Virus record (IMG/VR): IMGVR_UViG_3300020215_000118
Coordinates: 1 to 29,555 of that record
Source of the DNA: a virus
Length of the DNA stretch: 29,555 nt
Strand: one strand, 5' to 3'
A program made the translations under genes and the position numbers. Shown in pieces: positions 4,384-29,507 of the stretch. Below the pieces are notes generated by a model that saw only the letters and a program-made list of their open reading frames with translations, was not told the origin of the DNA and did not search any database. Every line of letters begins with the position of its first letter. Position 1 is the first letter of the stretch.

Positions 4384-4395
4384 GGAGGGGCGACC

Positions 4396-5463
4396 ATGCG
4401 TTACTTCGATCAACAGCTCGTCGCCAACTCCCGGCCGCACGCGGCTTGGTGGGGCGAGGTCTCGGTGGTGCGCGAGCACTTCCACCGGACCGAGGAGGCC
4501 CATGCCGGCCTGATGAATGAACTGCTCGGCAACGCCGCTGCGGTTCTGCCGCGCGACGCCTGGCTCGACCTCGACGGGATCACCCGACGGGTCATGCGGA
4601 ACGATGAAGGCCAGGTGTTCATGGCCGACCTCATGCCGCTGGCCAAGGCCGTCCACATCGGCAAGCTGGTTCACCTGTCGCGCGTCTCCTCGGACGCCGG
4701 CACGGTCCAGCGCTCGATGAGCGGCCAAGTCGCCAACCCGCTGGACAAGGTGGCATACGACTACCGGGGCGCCCCGGTCCCGATCTTCTCGACCGCGTAC
4801 GGCCGGGAATGGCGGGAGTGGAACACCCTGCAGTCGGAGAACTTCGACGCCCTGTCGGACGACCAGGAGGCGCACACCGCCAAGCTGCGTCGCGACATGG
4901 CGCAGTATGTCCTCGACGGCGACCCCAAGCTGACCTTCCAGGGCTACACGGCCAGCGGCATCCGCACCTCGACCCTGTCCAAGGCCATCAACCTGGGCAC
5001 GGCTGGCGGCGGCGCCAACATCGACCTGACTTCCGCGTCCACCACCTCGGACGCCATCGACGCCTTCTTCACCCAGACCCTCGGCGCCATGCTTGACGCC
5101 AACCTGATCACGGGCAAGGTCAACTTGTACGTCTCGCCCGAGATCGGCCGGAACCTGGACCGCTCCTACTCCGGCTCGTCCGGCTTCAAGGGCGGGACGC
5201 TGATGAGCTATCTTCTGACCAACCGGCGCATCAACAAGATCGCGGTCACCTACGAACTCAGCGGCAACCAGTTCTTCGGCTTTGTCCCGAACGCCGAGTA
5301 CATCCGCCCGCTGGTTGGCATGGCAGTCAACACCACGGCCATCACCCGCCTCAACCCGACCGACAATTACCAGTTCCTGGTGATGGGCGCGCTCGGGATC
5401 GAGATTCGGGCCGACTTCTCCGGCAAGTCCGGGGTCTTCTACTCCACCGACATCGACAGCTAA
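4396..5463 (+). CDS. Major capsid protein
   Basis: 355 residues, the shell subunit. The size, an N-terminal helical region (DAWLDLDGITRRVM), the central block RGAPVPIFSTAYGREWREW and a C-terminal domain with strands such as YQFLVMGALGIEIRADFSG suit an HK97-fold capsid of the encapsulin-like type. A good Shine-Dalgarno (AAGGAGGGG) precedes the ATG. Following protease and decoration genes it is the expected next gene. A hairpin follows the stop codon. The exact capsid family was not determined. Confidence 0.85.
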   Translation: MRYFDQQLVANSRPHAAWWGEVSVVREHFHRTEEAHAGLMNELLGNAAAVLPRDAWLDLDGITRRVMRNDEGQVFMADLMPLAKAVHIGKLVHLSRVSSDAGTVQRSMSGQVANPLDKVAYDYRGAPVPIFSTAYGREWREWNTLQSENFDALSDDQEAHTAKLRRDMAQYVLDGDPKLTFQGYTASGIRTSTLSKAINLGTAGGGANIDLTSASTTSDAIDAFFTQTLGAMLDANLITGKVNLYVSPEIGRNLDRSYSGSSGFKGGTLMSYLLTNRRINKIAVTYELSGNQFFGFVPNAEYIRPLVGMAVNTTAITRLNPTDNYQFLVMGALGIEIRADFSGKSGVFYSTDIDS

Positions 5464-5471
5464 GGCGGCGG

Positions 5472-5513: not shown

Positions 5514-5837
5514 ATGAAAATCCAGATCACCGCCGGTGGCATCTACAACGCCAAGGGCGAGGAAATCCCGGTCGGCACGGAACTGACCGTCAAGGGCGAA
5601 CCCACCGCCTGGGCCGGCCGCTACACGGTCGTGTCGGGCGGGAAGTCCGAGGGCAAGACCGCCGTCACCAACCCGGCGCCCAGCCTCAAGGCCGAGCATC
5701 ACGGCGGCGGCAAGTTCAACATCACCGAGGGCGAAAAGGTCCTGAAGGAAGGCCTCACCAAGGCCGATGCGGACGCCTTCAACGCCCTGTCCGACGAGGA
5801 CAAGGCCGCCTTCATCGCGGCCCAATCGAAGGACTAA
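5514..5837 (+). CDS. Hypothetical head-region protein
   Basis: 107 residues, no recognised family. The N-terminal half is beta-prone (MKIQITAGGIYNAKGEEIPV) and resembles a small SH3-like or barrel fold. The C-terminal half is a charged segment ending LSDEDKAAFIAAQSKD, like a short helical recruitment motif. Comparable small proteins often follow the capsid gene in siphophages. The ribosome site GGGGAGAGG lies partly in a hairpin after the capsid gene. The stop is 4 nt before the next ATG. Confidence 0.65.
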   Translation: MKIQITAGGIYNAKGEEIPVGTELTVKGEPTAWAGRYTVVSGGKSEGKTAVTNPAPSLKAEHHGGGKFNITEGEKVLKEGLTKADADAFNALSDEDKAAFIAAQSKD

Positions 5838-5841
5838 CCCG

Positions 5842-6348
5842 ATGGCCGGCTACGGTGACGACGCGACATTCGACGCATGGCTGGCCTCCAACGGCTACAG
5901 CCTGCCCCCTGGCGCACCGGCTACGGCCGTCTTGCGCCAGCGGGGCAGCACTTATCTCGATGGCCTGTACGGCAGCCGCTATACCGGCGCCCCGACCGGC
6001 GGCTATGCCCAGGAGCGCGCATGGCCGCGCACCGGCGCCACCGCCTACAGCATGGCCATCCCCGACAACGTCATCCCGACCCCCATCATCCATGCCAGCT
6101 ACGCGGCGGCGCTCCAGGAGGCCAAGACCCCCGGCAGCCTCGCGCCCGTTGTGACCGCCGGCCGGCAGATCAAGCGCGAGAAGGTCGAGGGCGCCGTGGA
6201 GCGTGAGTACTTCCAGGGAGGCGATGACGCGACCGCCAACGCCGTCCCGGTCCTGGCCGAGGTCGCTGGGCTGGTCGCCCCCTACCTGCTGCCCGAGGAC
6301 AACGGCGGCGTCGGTCTCTGGGCAGTTGGACAGCCCGCTGGCCTGTGA
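5842..6348 (+). CDS. DnaT-like head-tail adaptor protein
   Basis: 168 residues starting at ATG 5842. The layout of an N-terminal acidic/aromatic helix (DDATFDAWLASNGY), a conserved RQRGSTYLDGLYGSRY, an AWPRTGA segment and IHASYAAALQEA resembles the phage adaptor family annotated as DnaT-like, which attaches to the portal as a head-completion ring. Gene order after the capsid agrees. The nearby Glu/Gly-rich VEREYFQGG segment is typical of the family's middle part. It is not a replication DnaT; the name comes from fold similarity only. Confidence 0.7.
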   Translation: MAGYGDDATFDAWLASNGYSLPPGAPATAVLRQRGSTYLDGLYGSRYTGAPTGGYAQERAWPRTGATAYSMAIPDNVIPTPIIHASYAAALQEAKTPGSLAPVVTAGRQIKREKVEGAVEREYFQGGDDATANAVPVLAEVAGLVAPYLLPEDNGGVGLWAVGQPAGL

Positions 6349-6360
6349 CATGGTGGCACC

Positions 6361-6599
6361 GTGGCAGATCATGAAGACCGCATCTCCCTGATCGGGGCGC
6401 ACAGGAAGCCGGCGCTCCTCGCGACCGCGGCGCTCCAGGACATCATCGGCCAGGCCAGGGCCCTTGAGGCCGCCGCCTTGCGCAATCGAGCCCCGAGGAT
6501 CAGGCCGCCATCCGGCAGCGCGGCCATGATCTGCTCGACGCCTATTTCGACCACACCGCCGCCGCCGCGACGGCCGTCCGATTGCTGATCGACCCGTAG
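6361..6599 (+). pseudogene. Small head-region gene split by a -1 frameshift
   Basis: GTG at 6361 opens a frame that begins MADHEDRISLIGAHRKPALL, but from about codon 42 its product turns into Pro/Arg/Ser-rich nonsense up to TGA at 6588. The frame one base back carries a sensible continuation, EDQAAIRQRGHDLLDAYFDH and on to TAG 6597-6599. That frame is blocked upstream by TGA 6465-6467 and lacks its own ATG, GTG or TTG. A single shift between 6468 and about 6495 would join them into roughly 79 residues. No canonical slippery heptamer is visible there, so a one-base deletion or a sequence error is more likely than programmed shifting. Confidence 0.55.
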
Positions 6600-6605
6600 G
6601 TCTCC

Positions 6606-7646
6606 ATGCCCCGCACCCCGACGCAGCAACAGCTCTTCGCGGAGCTGATGGATCGGTATGGCCCGGAGATCGCCGAAGCATTTCTTGAGGCGATCCGCGA
6701 TCTGCGCTCGAACGTCAACCTGCAAGCCTTCCAGGGGGCCCTGGAGCGAGGAGACATCGAGGGGGCTATCACAGCCCTCAATCTCGAAACGGCCGCCTAC
6801 GAGCCTCTGGAGACGGTTATACGCGACGCCTACTTGGCGGGGGGTCGGGCCGGCGTCCGCACCATGCCAGGCATCGGGCGCCTGATCGTCGGCTTCAGGT
6901 TCGACGTGCGGAACTTCCGGGCCGAGGCCTGGCTGCGGGATCACTCATCGAGACTGATCACCAGCATCTTGGAAGAGCAGCGCGCGGCAGTGCGCGAAGC
7001 CCTCGGGGCCGCCATGGTAGTGAGCCAGCATCCGCGCACCACGGCACTGGAGATCGTCGGCCGGGTCAACCGGGCTACCGGGGCCCGTGAGGGCGGCATC
7101 CTGGGCCTGTCTGACCCTCAGCGGGCGGCTCTGGCCAAGGCGAAAGCCGAACTGGCCTCGGGCGACCCTGAGCAGCTGCAGAACTACCTGACCCGCGAGC
7201 GGCGCGACCGGCGCTTCGATCGGTCGATCACCAAGGCCATCCGCGAGGGCCAGCCCGTACCCGCCGACGTCGCGGCCATGGCGGCCGAGCGGTACGGCGC
7301 CAGGCTCGAGCAGCTGCGGGGCGAAACCATTGGCCGCACCGAGGCTTTGACCAGCCTGCGGGCGGCCAAGCTGGAGTCCTACGAGCAATTGGTCCAGGCG
7401 GGCCACGTCACCGCCGACCAGGTGCAGAAGGTCTGGAAGGCTAGCGCCGACCGCCGCACGCGAGACACCCACGCCAACCTCCACGGCAAAGTGGTCGGCC
7501 TTCGCGAGCCGTTCCGCAGCATCAGCGGGGCCCAGATGATGTTCCCGGGCGACACCAGCCTGGGCGCCCCGGCTGCGGAGATCGTTGCCTGCCGCTGCGA
7601 TTTCGCGGCGCGCATCAACTGGCGGGCGCTGGCCGGCGTCAGCTGA
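6606..7646 (+). CDS. Phage Mu F-like minor head (head morphogenesis) protein
   Basis: 346 residues. The C-terminal part shows the Phage_Mu_F (SPP1 gp7-like) pattern: IGRTEALTSLRAAK, then KVWKASADRRTRDTHANLHG (about residues 275-295), FPGDTSLGAP and the Cys-rich end ACRCDF (C329, C331). The N-terminal half is helical with alternating charges. Members are minor capsid components needed for head assembly or ejection. They usually sit right after the portal; here the gene lies later in the head cluster. ATG 6606 is 6 nt after the split gene's TAG. Confidence 0.87.
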   Translation: MPRTPTQQQLFAELMDRYGPEIAEAFLEAIRDLRSNVNLQAFQGALERGDIEGAITALNLETAAYEPLETVIRDAYLAGGRAGVRTMPGIGRLIVGFRFDVRNFRAEAWLRDHSSRLITSILEEQRAAVREALGAAMVVSQHPRTTALEIVGRVNRATGAREGGILGLSDPQRAALAKAKAELASGDPEQLQNYLTRERRDRRFDRSITKAIREGQPVPADVAAMAAERYGARLEQLRGETIGRTEALTSLRAAKLESYEQLVQAGHVTADQVQKVWKASADRRTRDTHANLHGKVVGLREPFRSISGAQMMFPGDTSLGAPAAEIVACRCDFAARINWRALAGVS

Positions 7647-8472: not shown

Positions 8473-8903
8473 GCGAAGCTGCCATGCGCGCCGCGGTCGA
8501 AACCGCCTTGATGACGCTGGGCTGGGAAGACCAGACCGCCTGGGAGAACCGGGCCTTCAATCCGACCGCCGGTGTGCCGTACCAGCGTGTCACCTGCGGC
8601 TTCGGCAGGCCCAACCACCAAGAGAACCGGGCGTCCTACACCCAGCAGGGCTGGATGCAGGTCGACCTGTTCTATCCCTCCGGCGATGACCCCGACGCCC
8701 CGCCATCGGGCCCGGGCGAAGCGACCGCTCGGGCAGAGTCGTTGAGGACCATCTTCTGGCGCGGCCGGACCCTCGTCCACGCCGGCATCAAGACCACCAT
8801 CTGGGAAGCCCCCGAGATCATGACGGGCCGCAGAGACGGCGACCGCTACATCGTCCCGGTCGTGGTCCGCTTCTACGCCCAAATCGAAGTTCAGCCGGCC
8901 TAG
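8469..8903 (+). CDS. Tail terminator protein
   Basis: 144 residues beginning in the ATGA overlap with the neck gene. Family-like features are a long first helix (AAMRAAVETALMTLGW), a beta strand with YTQQGWMQVDLFYP, a helix TARAESLRTIFWRG and a final strand YIVPVVVRFYAQIEV. This is the alpha/beta layout of lambda gpU-like terminators (DUF4128-type), which cap the tail tube at its correct length. Position between the neck gene and the tube gene agrees. Confidence 0.78.
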   Translation: MSEAAMRAAVETALMTLGWEDQTAWENRAFNPTAGVPYQRVTCGFGRPNHQENRASYTQQGWMQVDLFYPSGDDPDAPPSGPGEATARAESLRTIFWRGRTLVHAGIKTTIWEAPEIMTGRRDGDRYIVPVVVRFYAQIEVQPA

Positions 8904-8966
8904 GCCTGCCGATCCCCGGGCCGGTCTCCGGTCCACCCACCACCCCTGACATCTTAGGAGACCATC

Positions 8967-10187
8967 ATGGCCGCTCAGGGCATCGCGAAGACTGTCGCCT
9001 ACAAGAAGCAAGCCGGCCTAGGGACCGCCGCCAGCGGCGCCGGTGGCCAGTACCTGCGCACCCGCACCGCCAGCCTCAGCATGCCGGCGGACAAGTACAT
9101 CAACGACGAGCGGACCTCGCACCGCCAGTCCACCGGCGACACCGCCGGGATCCGGCGTGGGACCGGCAAGATTTCCGCGCTGCTGTCCCCCGGCACCTAC
9201 GCCGACTGGTTCGCCTCGCTGATCAAGAAGGCCTGGGCGGTCCCCTATGCGCCCATCGCGCTGGCCGCCACCACCCTGGCCGTCGCGGTCTCGGGTTCGA
9301 ACTACACCCTGACTCGGTCGGCGGGCAGCTGGCTTACCGACGGCGTCAAGGTCGGCGACGTCATCCGCCTCACCGGCGCCGGCCTCAACGCCGACGCCAT
9401 CAACAAGAACTTGGTCGTCCTGTCGATGACCGCGACGGTGCTGACGGTTCGCCCGGTCAACCTCTCCACGATCACCGCCTCGGCCGCGTCGGCCAACGCC
9501 ACCATCACCTTCCCTGGCAAGAAGACCTTCGCGCCGCTGACCGGCCACACCGACGACTGGTACACCCTCGAAGAGTTCTACACCGACCTCGCCCGCTCCG
9601 AGCTGTGGCCAGACACCCGGATCCAGCAGGCCGCCGTCGGCATCTCCGCCACGGGCAACGTCTCCCTGGACTGGGATGTGATCCCGCTGCGTCGCGTGCG
9701 CGGCGCCTCCCAGGTGCTGACCACGCCGGCAGCGGAATCGTCCTCGACCGTCGTCGCCGCCATCAACCTGTTCCTGATGGTCGGATCCACCCTGACCCCG
9801 GTCACCGGACTGCAGCTGACGATCGCCAGCGGCGACAGCCCCGGCGAGCCGGAGACGGGCGGCAACGGCATATCCGACGTCGCCAAGGGCGTGCTGGCCG
9901 TCAGCGGGCAGTTCACCGCCAAGTTCAACCACACCACCTTCCAGGACGCCTACGACGACCAGACGCCGGTCTCGCTGTTCGGGGTGATCGCCACCGACGC
10001 CACCGGCCTGGCCGACTTCGTCACCTTCGTACTGCCGCGCGTGAAGCTGTTCAACGACGCTCCCGACGACGGCAAGAAGGAGATCATCCGCACCTACCCC
10101 TTCACCGCGGAAATCCCGCCCACGGGCGGCGCCGGCGTGGCCAACGAGCGGGCCATCGTCAGCATCCAAGACAGCCTGGCCCCGTAG
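8967..10187 (+). CDS. Major tail tube protein with inserted beta domain
   Basis: 406 residues with AGGAG upstream. The N-terminal part (AYKKQAGLGTAASGAGGQYL, then NDERTSHRQSTGDTAG) resembles the phage tail tube 2 family, and the C-terminal part (VSGQFTAKFNHTTFQDAYDD) returns to that pattern. Residues of about 93-190 look like an added beta-sandwich (DGVKVGDVIRLTGAGLN and following strands), which in other siphophages decorates the tube surface. It is the first tail gene and directly precedes the chaperone pair. Confidence 0.85.
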   Translation: MAAQGIAKTVAYKKQAGLGTAASGAGGQYLRTRTASLSMPADKYINDERTSHRQSTGDTAGIRRGTGKISALLSPGTYADWFASLIKKAWAVPYAPIALAATTLAVAVSGSNYTLTRSAGSWLTDGVKVGDVIRLTGAGLNADAINKNLVVLSMTATVLTVRPVNLSTITASAASANATITFPGKKTFAPLTGHTDDWYTLEEFYTDLARSELWPDTRIQQAAVGISATGNVSLDWDVIPLRRVRGASQVLTTPAAESSSTVVAAINLFLMVGSTLTPVTGLQLTIASGDSPGEPETGGNGISDVAKGVLAVSGQFTAKFNHTTFQDAYDDQTPVSLFGVIATDATGLADFVTFVLPRVKLFNDAPDDGKKEIIRTYPFTAEIPPTGGAGVANERAIVSIQDSLAP

Positions 10188-10264
10188 GCCAGCTGAACAA
10201 GACCAACCCTCCTCAACTCTACGCCTCGAGTCGCGCCCGGGGTGCTTTTTCAGGAAGCAGAACC

Positions 10265-22718: not shown

Positions 22719-22772
22719 GCGGCGTCCACCGCGCAGCTCAGCAGACCAGTGCCCGCGCCTCCGGAGTTCCCT

Positions 22773-23198
22773 ATGCCCGATGAAGAGATCATGACGGCCG
22801 TCTCGCGTCCGGAGGCTGTGGCCATGGCTGAGATCCACGCGATGCGGCAGCTCGCCGACGCTGTTCAAGGCCAGACCAAACTGTTCGGCGAGTCCATGGC
22901 GGCGAGCGTTCGGGCCATGGAGAAGATCGGGGCGAAGATGGATAGCCTCAGCGACGAGGTCCGCCAGGTTGATCGCCGGCTTCTCCAGATGGAGGCCAAG
23001 GAACACAGCGCAGCGATCGACAAGCTGAACGGCCAGATCGAGGCGCTCAAGACCAAGATCGACGGGCTGGAAGCGACCCGCGACCAGCAAAAGGGCGCCC
23101 TAAACCTGGTCGGCTGGCTGAGGCAGACCACCCCCTGGCTGCTGGCGATCGGCGCCGGCATCGCGGCCGCGCTCGGCTGGAAGGACGGAACACCATGA
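22773..23198 (+). CDS. XhlA-like coiled-coil membrane protein (holin accessory)
   Basis: 141 residues from ATG 22773, preferred over an upstream in-frame GTG at 22749 because CGGAG lies 7 nt before it. Residues 45-105 are a charged heptad-like coiled coil (KMDSLSDEVRQVDRRLLQME) and 119-136 form a single C-terminal membrane helix. XhlA-type proteins of phage lysis modules share this plan and work with a small holin. The next gene is a two-TM protein that starts within the ATGA overlap, which fits a holin pair. The assignment is by architecture and position. Confidence 0.6.
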   Translation: MPDEEIMTAVSRPEAVAMAEIHAMRQLADAVQGQTKLFGESMAASVRAMEKIGAKMDSLSDEVRQVDRRLLQMEAKEHSAAIDKLNGQIEALKTKIDGLEATRDQQKGALNLVGWLRQTTPWLLAIGAGIAAALGWKDGTP

Positions 23199-23497
23199 CC
23201 GACACACCGCCGATCACCACCCCGCCCTCGAGGTTGGATCAGATCAAGGCCTTCATCGGCGACCTGGCGCGGCCCTTCGCCATCATCATCAGCTCTGCCG
23301 GCGGCGCCTGGGCCAGCGTGGTGGCTGCGTACAGGGTCGACAACGGCAATGACGGCGCTCTTTTGCTCGGCGCGATCTTCGCCGGCATCAGCGCCATTTA
23401 CATCGGCAAAGCCTGGGAGGTCGCCAAGACTGGCAAGCACTCCGCTCAGGTCGAGATAGCGAAGGTCGGGGGACCCGCCGCTGGGAACACTGGCTAG
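23195..23497 (+). CDS. Two-TM holin candidate
   Basis: 100 residues with two predicted membrane helices (about 27-46 and 54-72) joined by a short NGNDG-type turn and flanked by charged ends. The last codons are at the stop shared with the opposing gene. Holins make membrane holes that release the endolysin to the peptidoglycan. The endolysin here has no signal peptide, so it needs one. Overlap with the preceding coiled-coil gene supports a lysis pair. Confidence 0.65.
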   Translation: MTDTPPITTPPSRLDQIKAFIGDLARPFAIIISSAGGAWASVVAAYRVDNGNDGALLLGAIFAGISAIYIGKAWEVAKTGKHSAQVEIAKVGGPAAGNTG

Positions 23498-24450
23498 GGT
23501 TGGTGGGTCAGGCCCCAGTAGACGGCGTAGGCGACATGTGCCCAGGCGACCACCGCCGCGACAAGGGGTGGCCAAGTCCGTATCCCGTCGAGAAAGCGTT
23601 CGATCGGCAAGAATAGGGGCCTAGCCGCCGGATCGGAATGTACCACGCGGAGATAGTCAGCGGAGGCGAGCTCCAGACGTTCCAATTCGGCGATGTGTTT
23701 ATTCCGCTCAGCAAGATATCGCCGATACGCTGCGCCCGCTTGCCGCGAAAAGTTGATTAAAGACTTTAGAAGATCGCCAGGTATTTCAATGGAAACTACG
23801 TTTTGTTTAGGAGGAGGATGAACCCTGCTCAGATAATTGAATATTCGCTTTCTCAGCTCTTCATCGGTTTCGTGTGCAATCTCCAACGCTTGCATTTCCG
23901 ATGCGGCAGAGTCGGGGGCTTTGAACGCAGTCGCCTGAGCGACGTAAGACACTAGGTCCTGGTATTCGTATGGCACCGCCTTGACAGCCTGATCGTAGTG
24001 ATCTTCGAGCAATCTAATCTGGCCTAAGATAGGGGTGAGTTCCTTTTGGATCCTCTCGTGCTCCAGCTGGGCGGCGATCATATCCTGACGGCGTTTACTC
24101 GCGATACGGTCTTCAAGAACGATGTCGTACGTACCGCGGAGCTGCAGAAGAAGGGCCGCATATTGGATTGTCGTGAGGGAGAGACCCGCCAGTATCGCGG
24201 TAGTCGCGATTTCCGGAGTGACCGCGATGAGCCCCTTCAATAGAGGGCCAACCGCCTTCGGCTGAAGCAGCCCAGCCGCGTTGAAACCCGCCAAGGCGCT
24301 GGAGAAATACAGCCACTTTCGCAGCTTCAGCAGCCGCTTGTATGGCCCCTCTGCGGCTGTTCCCTCGTCGTCGCCGAAGTAGCTGCTGATCATCTCGCCC
24401 CCGGTCTGAGCAAGATCGGACCACAACTCGCAGTCGTCAAGGCGGGCCAC
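23494..24450 (-). CDS. Membrane-anchored coiled-coil protein of unknown function (opposite strand, low GC)
   Basis: 318 residues from GTG 24450; an alternative is the ATG at 24393 (residue 20). I recognise no family. There are two N-terminal hydrophobic segments (about 46-63 and 81-104), a charged coiled-coil-like stretch (105-155), a helical middle, a second charged helix ending LAERNKHIAELERLELAS, and a C-terminal TM (about 295-314, PLVAAVVAWAHVAYAVYWGL). It interrupts the lysis genes on the other strand. Base composition falls well below that of its neighbours between about 23,700 and 24,250, suggesting recent acquisition. Its stop overlaps the holin stop on the opposite strand. Exclusion, defence or lysis control are all inferences. 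Confidence 0.72.
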   Translation of the reverse strand: MARLDDCELWSDLAQTGGEMISSYFGDDEGTAAEGPYKRLLKLRKWLYFSSALAGFNAAGLLQPKAVGPLLKGLIAVTPEIATTAILAGLSLTTIQYAALLLQLRGTYDIVLEDRIASKRRQDMIAAQLEHERIQKELTPILGQIRLLEDHYDQAVKAVPYEYQDLVSYVAQATAFKAPDSAASEMQALEIAHETDEELRKRIFNYLSRVHPPPKQNVVSIEIPGDLLKSLINFSRQAGAAYRRYLAERNKHIAELERLELASADYLRVVHSDPAARPLFLPIERFLDGIRTWPPLVAAVVAWAHVAYAVYWGLTHQP

Positions 24451-24477
24451 TTTTCACTAGAATGGAAGGCACCAAAA

Positions 24478-25083
24478 ATGAGCAAGGCTCTATTCGACGC
24501 CGTGCGCGCCATCGTCGGCCGCGGTCTAACCCAGCCCGAGGTCGACCAGATCAACCGGGCGCTGATGGGCGACCTGGCGACCACGGCCCGCGAAGGCATG
24601 CGGATCAGCCAGCGCGGGATCGACCTGATCCACAGCTTCGAGCAGCTGCGGCTCACCTCGTACCCGGACTCTGGCAGCAAGAACGGCCTGCCCGTCACCT
24701 GCGGCTGGGGCACCACCCGCGACGAGGACGGCTCGCCGATCAAGCTGGGCGCCGTGTGGACGAAGGAGAAGGCCGACCGGCTCTTCGCTCGCGACATCGC
24801 CACCTTCGAGCAGGGGGTCAACCTGCTGTTGGCCGGAGCGCCGACCACCCAGGCGCAGTTCGATGCGCTGGTCAGCTTCGCCTACAACGTCGGCCTCGAC
24901 ATCGACGACGACACTGTCGCCGAGGGACTGGGCGACTCCTCGCTGCTGCGGAAGCACAAGGCCGGTGACTACGCCGGCGCCCAGGCCGCGTTCGGCAGCT
25001 GGATCTACAACGACGGCAAGAAGCTGAACGGCCTGATCCGGCGCCGGGCGGCCGAGGCGGCGCTGTACGGGAGCGCCGGCTGA
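24478..25083 (+). CDS. GH24 (T4-type) endolysin
   Basis: 201 residues, with GGAAGG 8 nt before the ATG. The lysozyme signature is clear: HSFEQLRLTSYPDSG has E55 and D64 in the E-x8-D spacing of the T4 lysozyme triad, and VTCGWGTT supplies T74 in place of the usual TIGYGHT threonine (an SKNGL insertion lengthens the D-to-T gap). Later FDALVSFAYNVG and GLIRRRAAEAALY are standard family blocks. There is no signal peptide or membrane anchor, so export depends on a holin. The first 40 residues are an extra N-terminal helix of unknown use. Confidence 0.93.
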   Translation: MSKALFDAVRAIVGRGLTQPEVDQINRALMGDLATTAREGMRISQRGIDLIHSFEQLRLTSYPDSGSKNGLPVTCGWGTTRDEDGSPIKLGAVWTKEKADRLFARDIATFEQGVNLLLAGAPTTQAQFDALVSFAYNVGLDIDDDTVAEGLGDSSLLRKHKAGDYAGAQAAFGSWIYNDGKKLNGLIRRRAAEAALYGSAG

Positions 25084-25508
25084 TGCCCAGGCTCACCGAC
25101 CTCATCCCCGCGCCCTATCGCTGGCTCGCCTGGCTGGCCGGCGCCGTGCTGCTGATCATCGTCATCATGGTGATCGGCTCCCGCTTCGGCGGCTGGCTCA
25201 GCGACCCGTTCGGGATCGGTGCCGCCAACCGCGCCCAGGACCGCGCGGACGCCCGGGCCGCACCGCATGCCAAGGCCGCCAGCGACGCCGCCGCCCAGGC
25301 TGCAGGAGAGCAGGCCGCCCGCGAACTTGAAAGCCGAACCACAGAACAGGAGAACCGAAATGCGATCCTCAACGCCCCGAATGCTGGCGACGGCGCTGGC
25401 GCTGCTGGGGCCATCGGCCTTGAGCGCCTGTGCCGGCGGGCCTCCTATCGAAACCATCCCGATTGCGCTGGACTGCGCCGGCCGGATCCCGCCCCAGCTC
25501 CGCGCTGA
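25083..25508 (+). CDS. Inner-membrane spanin (Rz-like)
   Basis: 141 residues starting in a TGATG overlap with the endolysin. One N-terminal TM (about 14-32), then an Ala/Arg/Glu-rich periplasmic helical region, then a Cys-containing end LERLCRRASYRNHPDCAGLR, common to Rz-like proteins of alphaproteobacterial phages. With the lipoprotein whose start is inside it, it should fuse inner and outer membranes in the last lysis step. The unusual C-terminal composition reflects overlap with the second frame. Confidence 0.82.
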   Translation: MPRLTDLIPAPYRWLAWLAGAVLLIIVIMVIGSRFGGWLSDPFGIGAANRAQDRADARAAPHAKAASDAAAQAAGEQAARELESRTTEQENRNAILNAPNAGDGAGAAGAIGLERLCRRASYRNHPDCAGLRRPDPAPAPR

Positions 25509-25722
25509 GGTCGCCCCGGCGGCGCCGCCGGCCGACAACAGCGTCGGCGCCTGGGTGGCGTTCGGCGACGCCCAGACCGGGCGGCTGGAGAGCGCCAACG
25601 AACGGAAGGCAACGGTGATCTGGATCCTCGACCGCTGCAAGGCGGAGGAGCGGGCGGCGGGCAAGGCCGTCGATACCCGGCCCTGGTGGCAGAAGATGCT
25701 CAGGCCGCTGAAGCCGGGCTAG
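25360..25722 (+). CDS. Outer-membrane spanin lipoprotein (Rz1-like)
   Basis: 120 residues in the +1 frame relative to the i-spanin, with AGGAGA about 6 nt before the ATG. A signal peptide ends in lipobox LSAC with C24 as the lipidation site. The ribosome site and start lie within the i-spanin gene, the classical Rz/Rz1 nested layout, but the coding part continues 214 nt past the i-spanin stop. At 120 residues it is longer than lambda Rz1. Most of it is Ala/Pro-rich and ends PWWQKMLRPLKPG. Confidence 0.8.
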   Translation: MRSSTPRMLATALALLGPSALSACAGGPPIETIPIALDCAGRIPPQLRAEVAPAAPPADNSVGAWVAFGDAQTGRLESANERKATVIWILDRCKAEERAAGKAVDTRPWWQKMLRPLKPG

Positions 25723-25731
25723 TCGAGCCGT

Positions 25732-26085
25732 CTACTGGGCGAAATAGTTGGCGTCGGCCACTGGTGACCAGGTGAGGCTCCGGACGGGGCGCACGTGAGC
25801 CACTTGGCGGACGCCCTTTACCGGCTTGACGCGCTTGACCCCTTTGACCGGTTTGACCTTCCTGACCGGCTTAATCGGCCCGCCTGCGGCACTTTCGGAG
25901 AAGAGTGCAGGCTTGTTTTTGCGATCGTAGAGCCAACCATCCTCAAACCAGCCCAGCAGGCGGCCTGAAAACGCCCAGACCTTGCCCTCAGCAATGTAGC
26001 CGGCCGGTCGACCGTCCCACAAATAGATGTGTTCGCCATCGTCGAGGTAGCAGACCGCCGCCCCTGTTCGTGAATAGAATTCCAT
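25732..26085 (-). CDS. 4-fold beta flower protein with basic repeat tail
   Basis: 117 residues from ATG 26085, chosen over the upstream in-frame ATG because GGAG lies about 7 nt before it. The N-terminal 70 residues carry repeated turns MEFYSRTGAAVCYL, HIYLWDGRPAGYIAEG, KVWAFSGRLLGWFEDGW, like the small 4-fold beta flower family known from alphaproteobacteria. The C-terminal half holds PVKGVKRVKPVKGVRQV-type basic repeats. Function is not known. The stop lies 9 nt from the spanin stop on the other strand, so the two genes converge. No clear terminator separates them. Confidence 0.72.
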   Translation of the reverse strand: MEFYSRTGAAVCYLDDGEHIYLWDGRPAGYIAEGKVWAFSGRLLGWFEDGWLYDRKNKPALFSESAAGGPIKPVRKVKPVKGVKRVKPVKGVRQVAHVRPVRSLTWSPVADANYFAQ

Positions 26086-26321
26086 GGGTTCGTCTCCATG
26101 TCTTGATGAACCACGGACCACACCGGCCAACCGTTAATCTGGCACTCGATGCTGTTGCCTGCCAACGAGAACACGGAATAAGAACAGGAAGCGTTGCGGT
26201 TCGCCGTGATGTGAAAGAGCGGGGGAGGGCGGCTTTCAGGCGCCAACCAAAGGGCCGGCCTCTCCCCAGTTTCCCTAAACGACTGCGTCACGCCTTCCGC
26301 CCAGAGCCATGTTTTTCGCGC
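26086..26321. other. Intergenic region upstream of the beta flower gene
   Basis: 236 bp between the starts and stops of the two - strand genes. It likely holds the promoter of the beta flower gene, but no convincing -35/-10 pair was found: a TTGGCA on the - strand has only a weak partner. No RNA gene or repeat was seen. Confidence 0.4.
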
Positions 26322-26531: not shown

Positions 26532-27230
26532 TCAGGCCGCCGCGCTTGCGGCAGCTATCCTTTCGACCGTGGGAATCGGGGTTCCCGACCAGGTGATCCT
26601 GTAGATTTCGCCCTGGGCGACCGATTGCACCACGTGAGGCCAGAGAGCCGCGAAGCAGACGCCGCCCTCATGCCGGACCGACGGATAGATGATCCCGTTG
26701 AGACCCGCCGCCCGCGCGTTCTTCGCCAAGGCGTTGCCGGCAGGGTAGCCAATGGCCGGGTCGGGGTGGAGACAATCGTGTCCTTGTGCCCTCAAGTCCA
26801 GAAACACGCCCGACATGCTGGAGAACATCTCGGCGTAGTCGATCACCGCCTCATAGCGGCCCGTCCGGCCGATGGCCTCGGTCATGTGGAAGACCACTTC
26901 CCGCAGGCAGGTCTCGACTTCCAACGCGGCGTACCAGGCCCCACGATCCGGGCCGTTGAACCGGTTCATCTCCATGGGTTTGGCGTAGGAGAAGGACGCG
27001 TTGATGAAAGCGGCATGGGGGACGCCGTAGACGAACTCTTCGGGGTTCACCGCCCCGGTACCGCGATCCTGGGCGACCAGTCGATTGCTGGTCGCCCCCT
27101 CGATCTCCGCGATGGCAGCCAAGTCGGCGGGCTCGACGAGCTTCAGCAGCACCGGGTCGCGCAGACGTGCGGACGTGACCAGCCGGACGGTCCTGGAAAA
27201 CGCTTCACGAACTACAGGAATACCGTCCAT
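26532..27230 (-). CDS. RES-domain toxin (NAD-depleting type II toxin)
   Basis: 232 residues from ATG 27230, 10 nt after the antitoxin TGA. RES toxins such as MbcT degrade NAD+ and so poison the cell. Family residues are visible: R90 in MEMNRFNGPDRG, Y100 in AWYAAL, E106 in EVETC and S184 in IIYPSVRHEGGVC. Length is normal for the family. The Xre-type gene upstream is its expected antitoxin. No inactivating change is visible. Activity is inferred from family. Confidence 0.88.
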   Translation of the reverse strand: MDGIPVVREAFSRTVRLVTSARLRDPVLLKLVEPADLAAIAEIEGATSNRLVAQDRGTGAVNPEEFVYGVPHAAFINASFSYAKPMEMNRFNGPDRGAWYAALEVETCLREVVFHMTEAIGRTGRYEAVIDYAEMFSSMSGVFLDLRAQGHDCLHPDPAIGYPAGNALAKNARAAGLNGIIYPSVRHEGGVCFAALWPHVVQSVAQGEIYRITWSGTPIPTVERIAAASAAA

Positions 27231-27240
27231 CGTGGTCCAC

Positions 27241-27678
27241 TCAGATCCCGCCTCTGATGGCGTCAATATAGCGGCGCGCGTCGAGCATTGCGGGGATGCC
27301 ACCCTCGATCATCGCGTCGACCGGGGACCGCCGGTCAAACAGCGGCCCCTTGTTTGGCAGCTTGACCCAGTCGTCGGCCATGCTGTCGGCGAATAGAAGA
27401 TGCAAACCCTTGAAGATTCCGATGGCCGCCGAGATGCGGGTCAGCTGGTCTTGGTTGAGCGCGGGCTCCTGGCCGCGTTTGATCCGGTCCCAGCTGCTTT
27501 CAGACATGGCCAGGAGGGCGGCGGCCTCGGCATTAGTCAGCTTCCAGTGCTTGACCAAGTTGCGATAAGCGCGAAGGGCGGGTCCGCTCAGGCGGGCGCG
27601 ATCACCCTCAGCCGAAAACGACTGGGGTTCGGTAGGCGTGAGAGGCGCGTGCTTTCCGGTGTGGGCGAGGTTGGTCAC
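27241..27678 (-). CDS. Xre/MbcA/ParS-type antitoxin
   Basis: 145 residues from GTG 27678, chosen because AGGAGA lies 6 nt upstream; an ATG further upstream (27726) has no such site. A helix-turn-helix-like segment (LTNAEAAALLAMSESSWDRI, about 48-67) is followed by the C-terminal toxin-binding region typical of RES-linked antitoxins (FADSMADDWVKLPNKGPLFD, then GGIPAMLDARRYIDAI). It precedes the toxin by 10 nt and probably represses its own promoter. The gene order antitoxin-toxin is usual for the family. Confidence 0.88.
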   Translation of the reverse strand: MTNLAHTGKHAPLTPTEPQSFSAEGDRARLSGPALRAYRNLVKHWKLTNAEAAALLAMSESSWDRIKRGQEPALNQDQLTRISAAIGIFKGLHLLFADSMADDWVKLPNKGPLFDRRSPVDAMIEGGIPAMLDARRYIDAIRGGI

Positions 27679-27684
27679 GGGGTA

Positions 27685-27717
27685 TCTCCTGACGGCAATG
27701 TGCGCGTCACCTGACGG
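27685..27717 (-). promoter_or_regulatory. Candidate operator at the antitoxin start
   Basis: CCTGACGG occurs at 27688-27695 and again at 27710-27717, 22 bp apart (about two helical turns). TGACG at 27690 and CGTCA at 27705 also form an imperfect dyad. The first copy overlaps the antitoxin's ribosome site. Binding by the antitoxin is inferred. Confidence 0.5.
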
Positions 27718-27861
27718 AAAGTCCATAGGGACGGTTTAGGTTTCGTTACTACAGCGGTCTGGGCCATCACATCGCACCCCCCGCCGGGTGCCGCTCCCGA
27801 TCCGAGCCGGGCCAGCTGGCGCTCTCTAAAGCAGGCGGGAGCCCTCACTCCTCGCCTTGAA

Positions 27862-28406: not shown

Positions 28407-28880
28407 TCAGGTCGCCGAAGTCACCGACAAAATCCCAAGCGTGAAGCCATCGACAGAAGCAAGTTTCCCGCGCCAGAGCAGGCCTTCGTCGTGGGGCAAC
28501 TGCCCGTCATGGGAAACGAACTTGGCATCCTTGAGATGGATATACCGGCGCTCATCCAATTCGTTTGCCGCCGCAGCACGATCGCGGTGGTCCGCCTCAG
28601 CAGTGAAAAACTCTACGCTGGATTGCTCGTTGCCAAAGCTTTTCGACATCTGCGTCGCGAAGGCGCGAAGGTAGTCACCTTCCCCGATCAGCCAGCCGGA
28701 CAGAACCTGCCCCCCCATCAAGAGGGTGATGTTCACCGAGGCCCCGGGCGCGCTGTTTACGATGCTGATGAGCAGCTGGAGCATCCGGTCCGTGCCCTTT
28801 GCGCGCGCCCGGACCCTTTCCTCTTGGCTCTCGTCCGGCTCGTTGTGGGAGTCGGTCGTGGGTTCAACATCGTCTGCCAT
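28407..28880 (-). CDS. GvpU-like accessory-domain protein
   Basis: 157 residues from ATG 28880, chosen for GGAGG about 5 nt upstream. The acidic N-terminus (about 30 residues) is probably disordered. The core has SVNITLLMGGQVLSGWLIGE and, near the end, YIHLKDAKFVSHDGQLPHDE followed by LLWRGKLASVDGFTLG. These blocks look like the gas vesicle accessory protein GvpU, which also occurs in bacteria without gas vesicles. No gas vesicle structural gene is in view. Function here is unknown. The gene follows an unknown 179-residue gene on the same strand after an 87-nt gap. Confidence 0.55.
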   Translation of the reverse strand: MADDVEPTTDSHNEPDESQEERVRARAKGTDRMLQLLISIVNSAPGASVNITLLMGGQVLSGWLIGEGDYLRAFATQMSKSFGNEQSSVEFFTAEADHRDRAAAANELDERRYIHLKDAKFVSHDGQLPHDEGLLWRGKLASVDGFTLGILSVTSAT

Positions 28881-28967
28881 TGTTTCCTCCAACGGATAAC
28901 CTATCGCAAGATTCGGCTTGCGGGCCATCTCGCGGACTTTGTCGGCTCCGCCTGGGTCTTTTCTGCG

Positions 28968-29507
28968 TTAGCGCATCACCGGGTCGGAATCGAAGATGCC
29001 GGCGTGGTCACCACTCCCGACGGCGCCATGCAGATCGTCAGCGAAGGCGCGCATGTCGCCTGACGCCATCCGGATAGCCCGGGCCGCGATTCGAGCCTCT
29101 GGCTCCTCGCGACTGCACCGCAGCTCAACCCGCGCCGTGATCACCCGTTCGTACGGCGCATCTGCCTCCACAGCCCGGAATTCACTCGTCGACCACCAGG
29201 TCGCCTTTCCCTCTCGTCGGCTGACCTCGGGCGGCAACTCGCCGCTGGCGAATTTGGCCGCGGCCCTGCGCAGCATCGGCACCATGATCCGGGCGGTTCG
29301 TTTTCGCAGCGAATTTAGGTCCTGAAAGATGGTCGCCTCAAAGGTGGCCGCCAAAGCCAATCGAGTACCTTCGCTGTTGAGGCCGCCGCCCGTCCCAGTG
29401 GCGATCGTCTGGGTGATCACCCGCGGACCCCCGGCGCCGAAGATGGTGACGATCGTCGGCTCGTTGCACGCGACGAAGAAGCCATTGCGCGTTCTGAATG
29501 CGACCAT
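28968..29507 (-). CDS. Hypothetical protein upstream of the GvpU-like gene
   Basis: 179 residues, with GGGAGG about 7 nt before the ATG. I do not recognise a family. The N-terminal third is beta-prone and Thr/Gly-rich (PRVITQTIATGTGGGLNSEG), the middle is basic and helical (LNSLRKRTARIMVPMLRRAA), and the C-terminal third is mixed. There is no signal or membrane segment. It is probably co-transcribed with the GvpU-like gene 87 nt downstream. Confidence 0.6.
   Translation of the reverse strand: MVAFRTRNGFFVACNEPTIVTIFGAGGPRVITQTIATGTGGGLNSEGTRLALAATFEATIFQDLNSLRKRTARIMVPMLRRAAAKFASGELPPEVSRREGKATWWSTSEFRAVEADAPYERVITARVELRCSREEPEARIAARAIRMASGDMRAFADDLHGAVGSGDHAGIFDSDPVMR

Follow-up and report, generated by a model that had tools for sequence, protein, structure and literature searches.

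The 29,555-base IMG/VR virus record analysed here (a 29.6-kb, possibly incomplete contig, hereafter the window) carries, inside its lysis cassette and on the opposite strand, a gene that is very probably a free-standing, mobile and horizontally acquired moron of a Caulobacteraceae prophage. The gene is foreign cargo, it has moved between sites, and it encodes a real, selected protein with membrane helices by hydropathy. The fuller statement, in which this cargo moron also excludes other phages, is advanced tentatively, and we rate it somewhat below an even chance. The gene and its three relatives define an undescribed single-gene family. Where the profile libraries are empty, there is thus a defined and testable family, recognisable by a motif and comprising four members in three types of location, and laboratory models exist for its bacterial hosts, the Caulobacteraceae. 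If phages are excluded, the family would add a single-gene membrane defence, and its member in the window would be a defence gene placed antisense among lysis genes, an arrangement relevant to the way prophages shut off their own defences at induction.

Position, composition and start of the cargo gene

The plus strand of the window reads from terminase through portal and capsid-region genes and tail genes to the lysis cassette. At 22749..23198 (plus strand), a protein with a coiled coil and a C-terminal transmembrane segment (TM) may be an XhlA/hemolysin-like accessory lysis protein; its matches to the PHROG 'hemolysin' models 1193 and 937 are weak (E 0.008-0.012 only), and it has a relative in locus L086. 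The gene at 23195..23497 (plus strand) encodes a two-TM holin-like protein of 100 aa that has no family match in Pfam or PHROG and whose relatives adjoin the endolysin in L034, L029 and L032. The endolysin itself (24478..25083, plus strand; Phage_lysozyme, PF00959, 8.3e-32; phrog_7) is followed by a probable i-spanin (25083..25508, plus strand), assigned from its sequence and a weak match to the Rz-like spanin phrog_1152 (E 0.07). An o-spanin-like lipoprotein frame overlaps the latter on the same strand (within 25083..25722, end at 25722).

The cargo gene lies between the holin-like gene and the endolysin, on the minus strand, and has a GC content of 56%. Its longest open reading frame (ORF) spans 23494..24450 (318 aa, GTG start at 24450), and its probable real extent is 23494..24393 (299 aa), on the evidence of relatives (L103, L104 and L105), hydropathy and composition. 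The stop codons of the cargo and holin-like genes overlap in the palindrome CTAG (23494-23497). By codon position, the GC of the ORF is 0.646/0.414/0.646; the GC3 of 0.65 compares with 0.78-0.94 in the plus-strand phage genes used for comparison, and the flanks have a GC of 0.68. A maximum-likelihood change-point fit delimits a low-GC segment at 23581-24495, lying over the gene (GC 0.549 versus 0.682, log-likelihood gain 27). A previous sequence-only reading had described a low-GC gene on the opposite strand between a holin candidate and the endolysin, and the ORF, its composition and its neighbours bear this out.

That reading gave the protein 318 residues. The corresponding ORF exists, but the start is probably ATG 24393 rather than GTG 24450, because Met20 of the window protein is aligned with the first residue of the L103 relative, and because GGGGGCGA precedes the ATG, just upstream of it, in both the window gene (minus strand, 24393) and the L103 relative. 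The 84 bp between this probable start and that of the endolysin (24394..24477), delimited by the two divergent starts, would hold the promoter of the cargo gene; the ribosome-binding site of the endolysin, GGAAGG, is also found there, at 24465-24470. A simple scan of the cargo gene revealed no clear sigma-70 promoter on the minus strand and no terminator at the gene end, and near the start it returned one weak plus-strand match, at about the level expected by chance.

The product and the search for known families

The product is predicted to be an inner-membrane protein. In the numbering of the 318-aa ORF, TM2 (~83-105) and the C-terminal TM (~294-314) are clear by hydropathy, and a helical charged region (~106-290) lies between them. 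The hydrophobicity of TM1 (~45-63) is marginal, with a best 19-residue Kyte-Doolittle mean of 1.14-1.43 in three proteins. Hence, the N-terminal hydrophobic segments and C-terminal TM that had been proposed from the letters alone are retained for TM2 and the C-terminus, with TM1 remaining marginal. The basis of the 'coiled coil' label, proposed at the same time, is helix prediction and charge content only, and the sole structure model, a single-sequence AlphaFold prediction, is poor (pLDDT 48).

The protein has no family match in Pfam, NCBIfam, PHROG or PADLOC, and profile searches of the PDB, one of them with a three-member profile of the family, revealed no similarity to a solved structure, in agreement with the earlier failure to recognise a family. 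For the window protein and its relatives alike, there was no profile match to SieA/SieB superinfection exclusion in Pfam, PHROG, NCBIfam or PADLOC. Among the PADLOC defence profiles, none matched the window protein, and the L103 relative gave only coiled-coil noise (E 0.2). A DUF4806 match (E 0.04), far below the cut-off, was ignored.

Searches beyond the Caulobacteraceae genomes were also negative. With the window protein and two relatives as queries, tblastn against phage and plasmid collections gave no real match: a Halioglobus plasmid ORF (E 0.3), which looks like a plain coiled-coil protein, was rejected as a matter of composition. Weak matches in L094, L095, L096 and L098 were rejected as shadow-frame chance. 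Peptide-pattern scans found no relative in viral contigs (using the whole protein, its two halves, the three-member alignment and a degenerate DNA motif) or in genome contigs; such scans demand exact 7- or 8-residue matches and are therefore no proof of absence. Sampled genomes from wider groups were searched as well (398 from Caulobacterales, 385 from Alphaproteobacteria, 398 from Pseudomonadota and 398 from Sphingomonadales) and gave no real relative.

Relatives in prophages and chromosomes

Three relatives, with E values of 5e-22, 8e-21 and 5e-10, emerged when 390 Caulobacteraceae genomes were searched in six frames; their loci are L103, L104 and L105. The family thus counts four members including the window gene, one of which (L105) is frameshifted. 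Its members share an N-terminal block, G[DE]DExTAxxGPYxRxLKxRKWL (in short form GxDExTAxxGPYxRxLKxRKWL), a pair of membrane helices with QLxxxYDxVLxxRxAxR after it and, towards the C-terminus, RxxxxxxExxxDxxRxxxP ahead of the last TM; the helical middle part varies in length between members. What had been suspected to be an undescribed system is indeed undescribed, but is better termed an undescribed single-gene family.

The L103 relative (216 aa, 9539-10189, minus strand, genome G1401) belongs to a prophage, in which its position is immediately upstream of the terminase genes. The portal- and capsid-region proteins of this prophage are 64%, 71% and 53% identical to those of the window (71% being the value of a capsid-region protein), and by these identities it is a prophage of the same kind as the window phage. 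We infer the temperate lifestyle of the window phage from this prophage relative. Beside the relative, the G1401 prophage contains two further low-GC genes on the opposite strand (8522-9412 and 6392-7342, both minus), whose products each combine a hydrophobic N-terminal segment with a stretch resembling a coiled coil and showed no convincing family match.

The other two relatives are chromosomal: recQ and htpX flank them, and no phage genes are visible around them. In L110, a close relative, recQ and htpX are adjacent without the cargo gene, separated by a 12-bp gap. The dN/dS of the L104/L105 pair is about 0.04 in the N-terminal part and 0.10 in the rest, which, as a pairwise estimate, shows purifying selection on the chromosomal genes. 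The L105 copy has a one-base shift, taken to be either recent or an assembly error because its dN/dS against L104 is still ~0.04-0.10. The dS of the cargo gene between the two loci is 1.5-2.6, a rough value near saturation, versus 0.45 for recQ and 0.34 for htpX. Since the former is far above those of its flanking genes, the cargo gene has its own history, and this suggests a separate acquisition or an exchange.

The lysis junction in related phages

The holin-like and endolysin genes touch, and the cargo gene is absent, in L009/L034, L029 and L032. They are close together in L011 (Brevundimonas viscosa), and in the L103 prophage the lysis genes overlap and no other gene intervenes. Related phages thus lack the gene at this position, and its base composition deviates from that of the phage; both are hallmarks of a moron, and the earlier suggestion of inserted phage cargo is upheld. 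It proved to be neither a fixed lysis gene of matching GC nor a member of a housekeeping family, the outcomes that had been named as contradicting this suggestion. Relatives at other sites, junctions without the gene and purifying selection together identify it as mobile single-gene cargo and not as a lysis gene.

Other genes occupy this neighbourhood in related phages. The holin-endolysin gap of L014, whose endolysin is 70% identical to that of the window, holds two other opposite-strand ORFs (minus strand, 4806-5411, 201 aa, and 5658-5960, 100 aa). In L038, an HNH_3/AP2 gene (HNH_3, 1e-12) lies on the opposite strand just upstream of the lysis genes, and in L054, an Acyl_transf_3 gene (4390-5469, minus strand, 9e-24) is inserted antisense in a related phage, just ahead of its lysis genes. 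Because these three loci carry such genes, the surroundings of the endolysin are a recurrent site for opposite-strand cargo, of which only L014 represents strictly the same gap, the cargo of L038 and L054 being nearby. The 201-aa ORF of L014 looks HNH-like by eye (CxC, HG and DRID motifs), with no Pfam match at E 0.01. In L009, another related phage, a 197-aa opposite-strand ORF (6799-7392, minus strand) follows the endolysin directly and also looks HNH-like by eye. The acyltransferase-3 gene of L054 is of the O-antigen-modification type.

Possible functions of the cargo gene

Superinfection exclusion, or defence exerted from the membrane, is our best mechanistic guess; the sequence-only reading had named superinfection exclusion and abortive infection, and both are plausible. 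Exclusion fits best because the gene encodes a membrane protein that is sporadic in prophages and chromosomes, by analogy with SieA. Weighing against it are the failure of any defence profile to match the protein or its relatives, the lack of similarity to solved structures, and a scan that yielded neither a clear minus-strand sigma-70 promoter nor a terminator. The N-terminal helix pair would sit in the membrane, with the N-terminus inside by the positive-inside rule, and a helical stretch in the cytoplasm, differing in length between family members, would connect it to a membrane anchor at the C-terminus. In the lysogen, a promoter of its own would drive the gene, and the membrane-seated protein may block or abort infection by other phages, either when their genomes enter or early in development. 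On induction, the late transcript would run antisense through the gene and turn it off; conversely, the cargo transcript may damp leaky holin mRNA in the lysogen. In its position and orientation, antisense inside the lysis operon, the gene resembles a 'noncontiguous operon', an arrangement that could switch it off at induction, so that expression in the lysogen and expression in the lytic phase would exclude each other. The most elaborate version would be a new Caulobacteraceae anti-phage membrane family, mobile between prophages and chromosomes and here wired antisense, such that induction switches the guard off and the guard transcript restrains the lysis genes in the lysogen. Taken as a whole, we consider this version unlikely.

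A close rival to exclusion is a lysogenic-conversion or host-benefit membrane protein with no anti-phage role, acting for example in envelope stress, transport or membrane organisation and carried as an accessory gene on prophages and chromosomes. We regard it as possible, if on the unlikely side. The two chromosomal relatives between recQ and htpX, with no phage genes in sight and under purifying selection, are in its favour, this selection being equally expected of a gene of host physiology, and the acyltransferase among the near-lysis cargo (L054) is a typical surface-modification conversion gene. However, the occurrence of the family in 3 of 390 genomes, its low GC and its history of exchange are no less compatible with defence or selfish cargo, and no known physiological family was matched in the profile searches. 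The helix pair, the sensor-like cytoplasmic region and the third TM could also be those of a suicide effector of abortive infection, with helices that would open a pore or cause depolarisation once infection is sensed by the helical region in the cytoplasm. RexB and SieB are examples of such prophage morons. Here this seems quite improbable, given that no sensor domain or partner gene was recognised, that the gene stands alone in L104 and in the window, and that no PADLOC effector matched.

Lysis timing had been the second option of the sequence-only reading, and an antiholin or lysis inhibitor acting with the neighbouring holin would explain why a membrane protein is wedged between holin and endolysin; an antisense transcript extending past 23494 would, moreover, cover the holin mRNA. 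This option is now disfavoured, to the point of being very improbable, by the opposite orientation and lower GC of the gene, by its absence at the junction in relatives with the same type of holin, and by family members that lie away from lysis genes, upstream of terminase or between recQ and htpX. The co-occurrence and co-orientation with the holin expected of an antiholin are not observed. Finally, a chance ORF, or the shadow of a plus-strand gene, would account for the family having a single member in the viral collections by peptide-pattern scans. The existence of three relatives with matching motifs refutes this reading. In addition, dN/dS is 0.04-0.1 in one pair, second-order Markov simulation of the region produces a stop-free run of at least 318 codons in 0.4% of cases, and no plus-strand gene of comparable length competes in the holin-endolysin gap, so that the chance of an artefact is negligible.

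Comparison with known systems

SieA of P22, an inner-membrane protein of 162/164 aa for which three TMs are predicted, blocks the delivery of DNA (PMC10883804). SieA-type genes (PMC10883804) and the cargo gene are alike in being single prophage-borne genes, poorly conserved between types, for small proteins of the inner membrane, the cargo protein by prediction; each has about three TMs, of which TM1 is marginal in the cargo protein, but the cargo protein has no sequence similarity to SieA by profile scans, and SieA is half its length and has no long cytoplasmic helical region. Like the cargo gene, the prophage morons HK97 gp15 (cited in PMC10883804) and those of DLP4 (PMC6469090) are single acquired genes of deviating composition that are inserted between phage genes and variably present in relatives. 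Unlike gp15 and the DLP4 morons, the cargo gene is antisense in a lysis operon, and its family is also found in chromosomes with no phage genes in view.

Antisense nesting switches a Staphylococcus aureus prophage defence gene, Tha, off at induction (PMC11087260). By position and orientation, Tha/Ith and the cargo gene have in common a gene nested antisense inside an operon that belongs, in the case of the window presumably, to the opposite phase of the life cycle. In Tha/Ith, the defence gene is part of the cI operon, and what is nested is a small inhibitor gene in antisense (PMC11087260), whereas in the window it is the candidate defence gene itself that is nested, no inhibitor is seen and, unlike in Tha/Ith, there is no HEPN domain. 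The cargo hotspots of P2-like phages and P4-like satellites (PMC9122126) resemble the lysis region described here in that one genomic position accommodates differing cargo. The phage and the site differ from those of the window, and the nearby cargo of L038 and L054 (HNH and acyltransferase) is not defence.

Other genes behind the lysis cassette

The right end of the contig has two minus-strand ORFs, 28407-28928 (173 aa) and 28968-29507 (179 aa), with no Pfam match. Just downstream of the spanin frames, a gene at 25732-26130 (minus strand) encodes a 4-fold beta flower protein (PF21784, 1e-37), with a GC3 of 0.68 that is lower than that of the plus-strand phage genes. Directly behind the lysis cassette, the window also carries a toxin-antitoxin pair, consisting of a RES-domain toxin (26532-27302, minus strand; PF08808, 7e-26) and an Xre-like antitoxin (27241-27726, minus strand; PF20432, 6e-12).
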